Source: Sedimentisphaerales bacterium
Lineage (GTDB): Bacteria > Planctomycetota > Phycisphaerae > Sedimentisphaerales > UBA12454
Length of the DNA: 51,610 bases
Assembly: GCA_016930635.1 (NCBI GenBank)
Contig: JAFGGI010000063.1
Span: forward strand, 1 to 51,610
Reading direction: 5' to 3'
In this document: positions 184 to 51,610 of the stretch, piece by piece
Numbering within the stretch: position 1 is the first letter of the stretch
Layout: the number at the start of each line of letters is the position of its first letter
Notes under the pieces: generated by a model
Seen by the model: the letters and a program-made list of their open reading frames with translations, nothing else
Told to the model about the DNA's origin: nothing
Database searches by the model: none
Position numbers and translations under genes: made by a program

Positions 184-2031
184 TTATTGACATAAGGTAG
201 CAGGGATTTTAGTGCAGTCGAGCCATTCGGAGGCCATTATCGACAAATCCAGCATATTTACGATACAGTCGCCATTGAGGTCGCTGAGGATAGGTTCTGA
301 GCAACTGCCGGCGGAGATTGAGATCTGGTATTTGCCCATTTCGCCGTTGAAGCCTGCCAGGCGGATGTAATAGATTTTGTTCTTTATCATATAATATGTT
401 ATCTGCGAATCGGTGGTTATGTCGTAATCATCATTGCATGCAAGTTCATCGCCATCGCAGGCGTTGAAAAGTGCGAGGGTTGTGTCGAAGTTGTCACTGG
501 CTGCGGTGATAGTATATTCGCCAGCCTGGCTCGGCTGGAAGTAGTACCAGACGTCGGTGTAGTCGTCATAGGCACAGGTTGTTATGTCGTTGCCGTCAGC
601 GCCGTAGTTCGAGCCGTTGTAGGTTGTACCGGAGGAGATTTCGATAGCGTCTTCGCAATCGCCATTTACTATATAGAGCCATAATTCAGTACCGTGTGCG
701 GCATAGCCGTCGGTGGCTCTGAAGAAGAGCAGGTTGTCTATGGTTGTCATTTCTTCGGGATATGAACCTAACGAGCCAGGGTTTATATCCATTACCATTT
801 GTGTACCGGCAGCAGTGCCGTCACTTTGCCATAACTCATAGCTGTGTGTGCCGTCACTGACCTGGAAAAATAATTTACCGTTCGCACTGGTCAGGTGCTG
901 AGGGAGTGAGCTGGATATGCCTGGATATATGTCTTTTACTAATGATACGGTGCCGCCGACTGTAGTATCGCATTTCCACAATTCATGGCCGTTTGCATCA
1001 TTATCGGCCCGGAAAAATAATATGCCGTCAACATTTGTCATATCGGCAGGTCCTGAACCGGTCATACCCGGATATATGTCATTTACCATATATGTGCCGA
1101 ATTCAGTGCCGTCGGATTTCCATAGTTCGTCGCCGTTTATACCGTCTCTGGCATTGAAAAATAATGTGCCGTCAACATTTGTCAGGTAGGAAGGGTTCGA
1201 ACTTGAGCCGTAATATATATCGCGAACCATTGTGGTGCCGGCTTCGGTGCCGTCAGTTTTCCATAGTTCCTGGTAGTAAGTGTTTTCGTAAGCGGAGAAA
1301 AACAGCGTGTTGTTAACAGCTGTCAAATAGTCGATGTTTGAACCTGTCGAGCCGGGGCGTATATCCTTTACCATTGCAGTTCCGGCTTCTGTGCCGTCAC
1401 TTGACCATAATTCTGAGCCATTTGCATCATTATTGGCCCGGAAAAATAATGTGCCATTAAAATTTATTAACCTGGAGGGCATTGAATCGTATATACCGGG
1501 ATTTATGTCTTTTACCATATATGTGCCTGCTTCAGTGCCGTCACTTCTCCATAGCTCGTGGCCGTTTGCATCGTTAACGGCCGAAAAAAATAACATACCT
1601 TGCACATCCGTCAGATATACAGAGCCTGAACCTGAGAAACCCGGATTTATATCCTTTACCATCGCCGTGCCAGCTTCGGTACCATCGCTTTTCCATAGTT
1701 CACCACCATTTATGTTATCAGCAGCGGTGAAAAATAATGTACCGTTCACATCTGTCAGATATGACGGATTTGAACCTGTCGGGCCGGGGTATATGTCTTT
1801 TACCATATATGTGCCTGCTTCAGTGCCATCGCTTCTCCATAGTTCCTCGCCAGCTGTGCCGTCGTTAGCTTTGAAAAATATTATGTCGTTCACTCTTGTC
1901 TCATACATAGGATATGAGTTTGACACGCCCGGGTAGATATCCCTGAGCATAAATGGGGCATCTGCAAGGGCAATATAACTAACAGGTAATAATAGAGCCA
2001 GAAATGCTAATATAGATAGTTTTATCTTCAT
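184..2031 (-). CDS. Exported ELW-repeat protein with PPC and dockerin-like C-terminus
   Basis: The protein has 615 residues. An N-terminal signal peptide (about residues 1-24, ending near ALA-DAP) precedes tandem repeats of roughly 45 residues with the pattern ELWxSDGTEAGTxMVKDI, then a PG/S-rich turn and an LFF strand. The ELW motif occurs nine times over about residues 35-445. This repeat is known from exported, probably beta-propeller-like proteins. Residues about 450-570 resemble a pre-peptidase C-terminal (PPC) domain. The last about 35 residues start DLNGDCIVNMLDLSIMA, a dockerin type I-like calcium-binding half-motif common at the ends of Phycisphaerae exported proteins. The role is unknown; surface binding or carbohydrate-associated function is inference. 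It is divergent from the histidine kinase at 2265. Confidence 0.85.
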   Translation of the reverse strand: MKIKLSILAFLALLLPVSYIALADAPFMLRDIYPGVSNSYPMYETRVNDIIFFKANDGTAGEELWRSDGTEAGTYMVKDIYPGPTGSNPSYLTDVNGTLFFTAADNINGGELWKSDGTEAGTAMVKDINPGFSGSGSVYLTDVQGMLFFSAVNDANGHELWRSDGTEAGTYMVKDINPGIYDSMPSRLINFNGTLFFRANNDANGSELWSSDGTEAGTAMVKDIRPGSTGSNIDYLTAVNNTLFFSAYENTYYQELWKTDGTEAGTTMVRDIYYGSSSNPSYLTNVDGTLFFNARDGINGDELWKSDGTEFGTYMVNDIYPGMTGSGPADMTNVDGILFFRADNDANGHELWKCDTTVGGTVSLVKDIYPGISSSLPQHLTSANGKLFFQVSDGTHSYELWQSDGTAAGTQMVMDINPGSLGSYPEEMTTIDNLLFFRATDGYAAHGTELWLYIVNGDCEDAIEISSGTTYNGSNYGADGNDITTCAYDDYTDVWYYFQPSQAGEYTITAASDNFDTTLALFNACDGDELACNDDYDITTDSQITYYMIKNKIYYIRLAGFNGEMGKYQISISAGSCSEPILSDLNGDCIVNMLDLSIMASEWLDCTKIPATLCQ

Positions 2032-45747: not shown

Positions 45748-46368
45748 ATGAAATTTAGAGCTTGTATCTTAATATTCGTGATTTTGAGCTTATCCTTGGT
45801 ACTACAGGCCCAGGCAGGGTCTGTATCTGCCCAGGAATATCAGGTTAAAGCGGCATTTTTATATAATTTTATTATGTTTGTTGATTGGCCGGAAGAAAAA
45901 ATGGCCTCCGGCAAAGATCCTGTAATTATAGGTATTATCGGTAAAGACCCCTTCGGCGAAGCCTTTGGTCCTATCACAAGCAAGCAGGCCAAGGGCAAAG
46001 ATGTCATTGTAAAGCACTTTAAAGGCCTGGCAGAACTTAAAAAGGCCGCCCCGGATAAAATGGCTCAGGAAATCGAGGAGATTAAGAAGTGCCATGTGCT
46101 GTTTATCTGCAGTTCTGAGAAGGAAAAGGGCACTGTAAAAGAGATTATTAATCTGCTCAAGGGCTCAAGTGTCCTGACCGTAAGCGATACTGATGGATTC
46201 CTCGAGTCTGAAGGCGGGATCATCAATTTCATCCTCCATGACCAGAAAATCAGGTTTGAAGTTGACATTGATACCGCAAAACAGGCTAATCTCAAGATAA
46301 GGTCTCAGCTTCTCAGGCTTGCCAAAAAGGTTATTGGCAGCGATTCTGCAACACTGGCAAAAGGCTAA
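45748..46368 (+). CDS. YfiR-family periplasmic regulator (copy 2)
   Basis: The protein has 206 residues: signal peptide, then YQVKAAFLYNFIMFVDWPEEKM, GIIGKDPFGEAFGPI, CHVLFIC, SDTDGFLESEGGIINF and LKIRSQLLRLAKKVIG. It is closely related to copy 1 (shared KAAFLYNFIMFVDWP, GKDPFG and LKIRSQLLRLA), with an additional C-terminal extension (SDSATLAKG). Unlike copy 1 it is not followed by a kinase; its target may be the same kinase or another membrane receptor. Hairpins precede it, and a decayed copy of its 3' end follows. Confidence 0.92.
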   Translation: MKFRACILIFVILSLSLVLQAQAGSVSAQEYQVKAAFLYNFIMFVDWPEEKMASGKDPVIIGIIGKDPFGEAFGPITSKQAKGKDVIVKHFKGLAELKKAAPDKMAQEIEEIKKCHVLFICSSEKEKGTVKEIINLLKGSSVLTVSDTDGFLESEGGIINFILHDQKIRFEVDIDTAKQANLKIRSQLLRLAKKVIGSDSATLAKG

Positions 46369-50239: not shown

Positions 50240-50413
50240 AAAAAGCCTGTGAGAATTATACCACTGACCAACCCCCTAAACAACTATGAAATATACGATT
50301 ATGGCAGTAAAAAACGTGATATCAGTACTGAAAACGGCCTTTCAAAATCATCTTAAACTTGAAAAACCGGGCCATCTGTGATATACTATTATTATCAGGA
50401 AAAGGGTGATAAA

Positions 50414-51610
50414 ATGACTACGCCGAACAGTTCAAAAATCTGCATTTATCTCACAGCCTTTATCGCAATAAGTCTTTTACTTACCTGCGGTTTGGCCCAG
50501 GCAGCCTGTGATGATTTCGTAATAGACGGCACATACGAGGCGTCTTTGGACCTGCCTCGCATCCTGTTTTTGCTCAAACGGGCTCCCAACGAGCCGCCCA
50601 TCGAAGTCGAAGGATATTTTGAGCTGAATTATGCCTTTCTCGATACCGGTGCCTCAGGAATACTGGTCTCGAAAGAGACGGCAGAATATATGGAACTTGC
50701 GATTGAGCCTAATGCCGTATTTGTAGATACCGGTGTCGCCGGCGACGAATATTTCGATGTCTCCGAGTCGCTCTATATCGGCACAGCGGATTACTATACC
50801 CCTGATCCTAACGACCCCAACACCTACTCTCTTAATGGTCCATTTAGATTCCAGGTTAAACAGGACTATGTCGAATGGCCCGAAGAGCCGCTGGACATAA
50901 TCGGCATGCCGGCTATGGCAGGCAAAACAGCCGTATTCACACCGATAAGCGATATCAATGATATCCTTGATTTAAACTACTATTCCGCGGACATAAAAGA
51001 AGCCAACGACCCCAATATCCCGCAGACTGATTTTCAAGTTGCACTGAGGTTCGAAAAGTTTATTAATCTGTCTATTCCGCAAAACATCCCGCCTTTGCCG
51101 ACGCTCGCATATAATCCCATGATAGATAATATAGTCGTCGAATATAGTAATGGAAGCAGCTCGACAGGCAGCTGGCTTTTCGATACAGGCGGTACGGTCA
51201 GTATTATGTCGATAGACCAGGCGGTAACTCTCGGCCTGACCGATGCCAACGGCGAGCCGATAGTATCACCCGATTTTTCGATGCTTATAGGCGGTATAGG
51301 CGGGGGAGTCGAAATTCCGGGCTTTATACTGGACAGGCTGAGCGTACCTACGCTGAATGGCTTTGATCTCGTATTTCTCAATGCAAGGGTCTGTGTGCAC
51401 GATATCGTGATTTTCGATGAGGACCTCAACGATTTTGTCGTTCTTGACGGCGTCTTCGGCGACAACTTCACTTGCGCTTCAATGGATTTGGCTACCTGGG
51501 ATATCAGCGGCTCACCTTTCGACCATTTATACTCTTCACACTTGAATTTTTCCGTTTTCAAGCGGCTTGAACGTGAAAATTTTCGGTCAGCAGTGTTTGC
51601 AATTCCGGCA
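50414..51610 (+). CDS. Exported two-motif aspartic protease, 3' end beyond window
   Basis: The ORF is open from the ATG at 50414 to the window edge (399 codons). A signal peptide (to about residue 28, LAQA-ACD) precedes two active-site motifs: Asp77 in FLDTGASGILVS and Asp257 in LFDTGGTVSIMS, 180 residues apart. Each follows a hydrophobic strand and is followed by a small hydrophobic turn, as in retropepsin and pepsin lobes. The spacing is close to that of pepsin-type bilobal enzymes. Other halves: GIGGGVEIPGF and LDGVFGDN, which fit later lobe strands. AAAGGGTG lies upstream of the start. Proteolytic role and substrate unknown. Confidence 0.75.
   Translation, partial: MTTPNSSKICIYLTAFIAISLLLTCGLAQAACDDFVIDGTYEASLDLPRILFLLKRAPNEPPIEVEGYFELNYAFLDTGASGILVSKETAEYMELAIEPNAVFVDTGVAGDEYFDVSESLYIGTADYYTPDPNDPNTYSLNGPFRFQVKQDYVEWPEEPLDIIGMPAMAGKTAVFTPISDINDILDLNYYSADIKEANDPNIPQTDFQVALRFEKFINLSIPQNIPPLPTLAYNPMIDNIVVEYSNGSSSTGSWLFDTGGTVSIMSIDQAVTLGLTDANGEPIVSPDFSMLIGGIGGGVEIPGFILDRLSVPTLNGFDLVFLNARVCVHDIVIFDEDLNDFVVLDGVFGDNFTCASMDLATWDISGSPFDHLYSSHLNFSVFKRLERENFRSAVFAIPA

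Follow-up and report, generated by a model that had tools for sequence, protein, structure and literature searches.

A predicted exported, two-lobed retropepsin-like protease of planctomycetes, interrupted by an IS630-type element in one genome

Results

The window analysed here, a stretch of 51,610 nucleotides, is the entire contig C23 of a 2.45 Mb planctomycete genome assembled in 64 contigs. We consider it highly likely that the last gene of the window encodes an exported single-chain clan AA endopeptidase, in which a retropepsin-like unit has been duplicated and fused, and that the copy in this genome is interrupted by an IS630-type insertion sequence.

The protease frame and its product

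Both the ORF listing and direct reading of the sequence give a frame that is open from an ATG at position 50414 up to the contig end. A probable ribosome-binding region (AGGAAAAGGG, 50393–50413, plus strand), read directly from the sequence, lies upstream of this ATG. The 5′ part of the interrupted gene (50414–51529, plus strand) encodes residues 1–372; homologues align to residue 372–373 and then diverge. Of the 32 window frames that reach 250 codons, no other contains at least two D[TS]G motifs; the DTG triads of this one fall at residues 77, 105, and 257. By eye, the N-terminus resembles a signal peptide (residues 1–30, 50414–50503, plus strand), with Lys8, a hydrophobic stretch at residues 9–27, and a putative cleavage site between AQA and the following Ala. 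The preliminary description of this DNA had placed DTG motifs at Asp77 and Asp257, 180 residues apart, in one exported chain. The two motifs, LDTGAS at Asp77 and FDTGG at Asp257, are indeed in phase at that spacing, and from the N-terminus we infer export of the protein.

Two similar lobes with conserved catalytic elements

The Asp_protease_2 profile (PF13650) matches the window protein in two stretches, with 31.1 bits against a curated cut-off of 24.3. The first stretch and the structural model delimit an N-terminal retropepsin-like lobe at about residues 31–187 (50504–50974, plus strand), and the second stretch (51149–51355) and the models delimit a C-terminal lobe at about residues 221–372 (51074–51529, plus strand), which lacks its last β-hairpin. 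Conservation was assessed in alignments of 27 and 44 sequences, the larger of which spans members down to about 29% identity. The catalytic motifs Asp77-Thr78-Gly79 (50642–50650, plus strand) and Asp257-Thr258-Gly259 (51182–51190, plus strand) are invariant in both alignments.

Each lobe also contains a flap and a psi-loop. In the N lobe, DSSP analysis of the model and column conservation define a flap hairpin (50717–50791, plus strand) with strands at about residues 102–107 and 110–126 and the tip V108-A109-G110, of which G110 is invariant among the 44 sequences; the psi-loop motif D161-I-I-G164-M-P166 (50894–50911, plus strand) has an invariant G164 and a P166 present in 43 of 44. The C-lobe flap hairpin (51275–51349, plus strand; strands at about residues 288–294 and 297–312), defined in the same way, has a glycine-rich tip, G293-G-I-G-G297, where G294 is invariant and G296 and G297 occur in 41/44 and 39/44 sequences, respectively. 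Column conservation across the 44 sequences places the C-lobe psi-loop motif at L344-D-G346-V-F-G-D-N351 (51443–51466, plus strand), with G346 and N351 invariant and G349 found in all sequences but one (43/44). The hydrophobic-hydrophobic-Gly signature of clan AA is thus found in each lobe, as G164 after I162-I163 and as G349 after V347-F348, beside G346. The clan's other hallmark, two h-h-D-[TS]-G aspartates contributed by two similar lobes, is represented by D77 and D257 in the two-lobe model. The remaining triad, DTG105, lies inside the N-lobe flap and was rejected as a third catalytic motif, since its Thr is conserved in just 8 of the 44 sequences (the Asp in 43).

Profile comparison of the two lobes with hhalign gave E-values of 1.4e-4 to 1.5e-4 over the DTG motif and the helix that follows it, with a score of 32.7 against a best of 25.0 in 60 column shuffles. 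The sequence similarity between the lobes is confined to these elements, about 25 columns, and global hhalign of lobe N against lobe C was uninformative. The internal duplication that the preliminary description had suggested looking for is therefore detectable beyond all shuffles. The opposite outcome that it had envisaged, halves that fold as unrelated domains or lack the flap and psi-loop, is not what we find: the halves are similar and both elements are present in each.

The predicted fold and its structural neighbours

AlphaFold2, supplied with the 44 sequences, modelled residues 31–372 with a pLDDT of 95.3 and a pTM of 0.92, and an intact relative was modelled equally well (pLDDT 94.1, pTM 0.92). 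The catalytic part is confidently predicted to consist of two similar lobes set like an active aspartic-protease dimer. In Foldseek searches of the PDB, the window protein retrieved, in rank order, tethered HIV-1 protease dimers, the Bacteroides fragilis protein 9iy9, and cathepsin D with pepsins; for the intact relative the order was 9iy9 (E 7e-9), tethered dimers, and pepsins. Alignments to the tethered HIV-1 dimers cover about 300–350 columns with a target TM of 0.57–0.68. These values exceed the reach of one lobe on a two-lobe target, which suggests that both lobes superpose together. Sequence profiles run against the PDB recovered 9iy9, Ddi1, APRc, and retroviral proteases at weak E-values, and single-sequence phmmer against the PDB returned chance matches only. 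The bilobal aspartic protease first proposed for this DNA is supported by the duplicated PF13650 match, the similarity of the lobes, the two flaps and psi-loops, and a confident two-lobe model whose nearest neighbours are of the retropepsin type, with pepsins next.

Assignment to retropepsin-like proteases rather than pepsin family A1

The preliminary description had also taken the protein for a pepsin relative, and in the sense of MEROPS family A1 this part of the claim is not supported. A true bacterial member of family A1, comparable to the shewasins, would likewise be a single bilobal chain with catalytic triads 180 residues apart, and Foldseek does find pepsins and cathepsin D at E of about 1e-6 and query TM up to 0.48. 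Nevertheless, we regard such membership as very unlikely. The pepsin profile PF00026 does not match the window protein up to E 10 and matches none of the 44 members, whereas PF13650 is matched by all 44 at E ≤ 0.01. Hmmsearch of the PDB with the family's sequence profiles returned retropepsin-like chains and no pepsin. Family A1 requires Ser or Thr after D-x-G (PMC2761423); in the 44 sequences, the residue after motif 1 is Ala in 32 and Thr in 12, and that after motif 2 is Ala in 34, Gly in 9, and Ser in 1, so that Ser/Thr is not kept in both lobes. Each lobe carries a flap hairpin, and the conserved Tyr at the tip of the N-lobe flap, a feature of A1, is absent: columns 108–111 hold Val or Ile, Gly or Ala, Gly, and a variable residue, and Y113 occurs in 8 of 44 sequences. 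Moreover, no signal peptide is reported for bacterial A1 members (PMC2761423). The presence of two lobes in one chain also separates the family from retropepsin family A2 proper, which is homodimeric and single-lobed. The fitting label should be 'bilobal retropepsin-like' in place of pepsin.

Proposed function and origin

From the fold, the conserved residues, and established knowledge of clan AA, we propose a mechanism in which a retropepsin-like clan AA unit, duplicated and fused into one exported chain, would form a pseudo-dimer of packed lobes, each giving the aspartate of its DTG to a common pair that activates water. The activated water would attack the peptide bond while the flap of each lobe covers the cleft, and the single chain would act as a pepsin or a dimeric retropepsin does, with no need for dimerisation. 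Judging from the model, the family most likely performs catalysis as a two-lobed protease with one aspartate from each lobe. The same fold could instead serve for binding only, without peptidase activity, and dockerins and PEP-CTERM signals, which terminate many relatives (see below), do occur on non-enzymes too. We give this alternative little credence, as both Asp-Thr-Gly triads and the flap and psi-loop glycines are kept across the 44 sequences, and triads that stay invariant down to about 29% identity are hard to explain without catalysis.

Returning to the peptidase, we tentatively put forward a more specific scenario, about which we have more doubt than confidence: a natural single-chain retropepsin that originated by duplication and fusion within bacteria, independently of pepsin, has a flap in each lobe, and is attached to the cell surface through dockerins or PEP-CTERM signals.

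Interruption by an IS630-type element

The window closes with 83 bases (51528–51610, minus strand) that form one end of an IS630-type insertion sequence. The element interrupts the protease gene and runs past the contig; these 83 bases are identical in four contig ends. They include the 3′ end of a transposase frame (PELQTLLTENFHVQAA and stop, 51558–51608, minus strand), which matches the C-terminus of the transposase of locus L089. In other genomes, related copies of the element adjoin a transposase whose DDE_3 and winged-helix domains resemble the IS630 group, and 12 further genomes of the order hold weaker relatives of the element end. The insertion boundary lies at a TA dinucleotide, the site used by IS630-type elements. 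Residues 373–399 of the frame were rejected as protease sequence because they are encoded by the insertion-sequence DNA. The original view that the 3′ end of the gene simply lies outside the window has to be corrected: the window end is the contig end, the final 83 bases belong to the element, and the gene continues on contig C55, beyond the element.

This missing part occupies C55:80–547 of the same genome; it was found with the tail of a relative as the query, which matched C55:80–544 with 63% identity. It encodes the last strand, SIVFDTQNAVLGFDV, two dockerin-like repeats, and then a stop. The element is thus inserted just before the last β-hairpin of the C lobe and cuts off the hairpin together with the two dockerin-like repeats. 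Contigs C64, C54, and C47 each start with the ~85 bases found at the beginning of C55. The element ends break the assembly, one end at C23, C54, C16, and C24 and the other at C55, C64, C54, and C47; four left and four right ends at contig breaks point to about four near-identical copies of the element. We would join C23 to C55 through this repeat. If the two contigs represented separate insertion sites, two partial gene copies would be needed, and there is no sign of these.

Function might persist if the run-on product folded and cleaved, or if the element were absent in part of the population; residues 31–372 alone are modelled confidently, and both gene halves are otherwise open, with no further stops. 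We nonetheless judge a functional window copy to be unlikely. The lost hairpin holds an Asp conserved in 39 of 40 sequences and a Leu conserved in 40 of 40 and forms two strands in the model of the intact relative, and with it goes the attachment region. Since the hairpin and the dockerin-like repeats are separated from the catalytic domain, the window copy is probably inactive, and loss of function is the most likely outcome of the insertion. The otherwise open state of both halves, free of further stops, indicates that the insertion is probably recent.

Similar exported proteins (EYQVKAAFLYNFIMFVDWP), which by eye resemble the YfiR/DUF4154 type, are encoded at 45748–46368 of the window (plus strand) and in locus L125 on C55 (710–1390, plus strand), the latter a short distance downstream of the protease gene's 3′ part.

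Distribution and C-terminal tails of the family

The family profile matched at E ≤ 0.001 in 45 of the 198 genomes searched, the window's own genome counted. Scanning roughly 85,000 species genomes with one N-lobe peptide pattern, by which distant relatives elsewhere could be missed, gave 45 loci, all labelled Planctomycetota or its subgroups except one bin. The exception (L081) is a relative whose bin bears the label Gammaproteobacteria, through either mis-binning or transfer. When the phylum was sampled thinly, the profile was matched at E ≤ 1e-10 in 18 of 392 genomes, in several through the C lobe only. Frames of 500–570 codons that match the profile by the C lobe only also occur within the order (G017, G021, G025, G029, G033, G036, and others) and possibly constitute a further Asp_protease_2 family whose N lobe has diverged. 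No conserved operon partners were found, with shared neighbours in just 3–4 of 28 loci, and tblastn detected no plasmid copies of the protease.

Among the 44 members, the C-terminal tail carries a type I dockerin (Dockerin_1) in 14 and PEP-CTERM in 12. From these tails we infer that the members probably work beyond the cytoplasm, being fixed to the cell surface or sorted to it. The window's genome contains 14 Dockerin_1 matches, one of them at C55:158–319, and a profile search of this possibly incomplete genome found no cohesin. The dockerins may therefore not dock as they do in a cellulosome. For freshwater planctomycetes, a hypothesis of cohesin–dockerin complexes that bear peptidases has been put forward (PMC6461901). 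Elsewhere in the window, positions 184–2031 (minus strand) encode an exported 615-residue protein with repeated ELW(K/R)SDGTEAGT units and a dockerin-like C-terminus.

Discussion

Pepsins are thought to descend from a duplicated and fused retropepsin-like unit. A conserved, exported family of two-lobed retropepsins would provide a natural test of such a fusion, through the asymmetry of the lobes, the two flaps, and the response to inhibitors; should the duplication prove independent of pepsin, the family would be a living counterpart of the hypothetical pepsin ancestor. The family further extends the little-known set of planctomycete surface enzymes by a predicted peptidase. The window copy itself matters less because it is interrupted. 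Our literature search found no description of tandem or bilobed retropepsins; the bacterial examples that it returned were either genuine A1 pepsins or dimers of single-lobed chains. Within the literature searched, the family appears not to have been described, yet it is built of known domains, and a related structure has been solved. Automatic annotation also assigns tandem PF13650 architectures to proteins of other bacteria, which would make the family less novel still.

Comparison with known systems

The solved structure, B. fragilis 9iy9 (a putative endopeptidase released on 2025-08-06, for which the literature search found no published description), is the structure that the intact relative matches best in fold, with a query TM of 0.46. 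It is exported, as is predicted for the planctomycete family, the alignment extends over nearly the whole catalytic part, and the DTGA-plus-helix motif is common to the two. In contrast, the two proteins share only about 12% identity, come from different phyla, and align by sequence at just one DTG. The engineered tethered dimers of HIV-1 protease (1g6l, 2o40, 3kt2) resemble the planctomycete family in having two retropepsin lobes per chain, two flaps, and one DTG per lobe. They are, however, man-made from identical units, whereas the planctomycete lobes are natural, larger, and diverged, and they come with a predicted export signal and with tails of the dockerin or PEP-CTERM kind. RloA/RimB and the Rickettsia protease APRc are also bacterial clan AA proteins with DTG[AS], but they are single-lobed; RloA is exported and works as a homodimer (PMC12239564), and APRc is a weak sequence match to the planctomycete family. 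The shewasins (family A1; PMC2761423, PMC4814920) likewise consist of a single bilobal chain with two catalytic aspartates. They belong to the A1 sequence family, have no reported signal peptide, and are reported from proteobacteria (PMC2761423), whereas the planctomycete family is retropepsin-like and, by prediction, exported.
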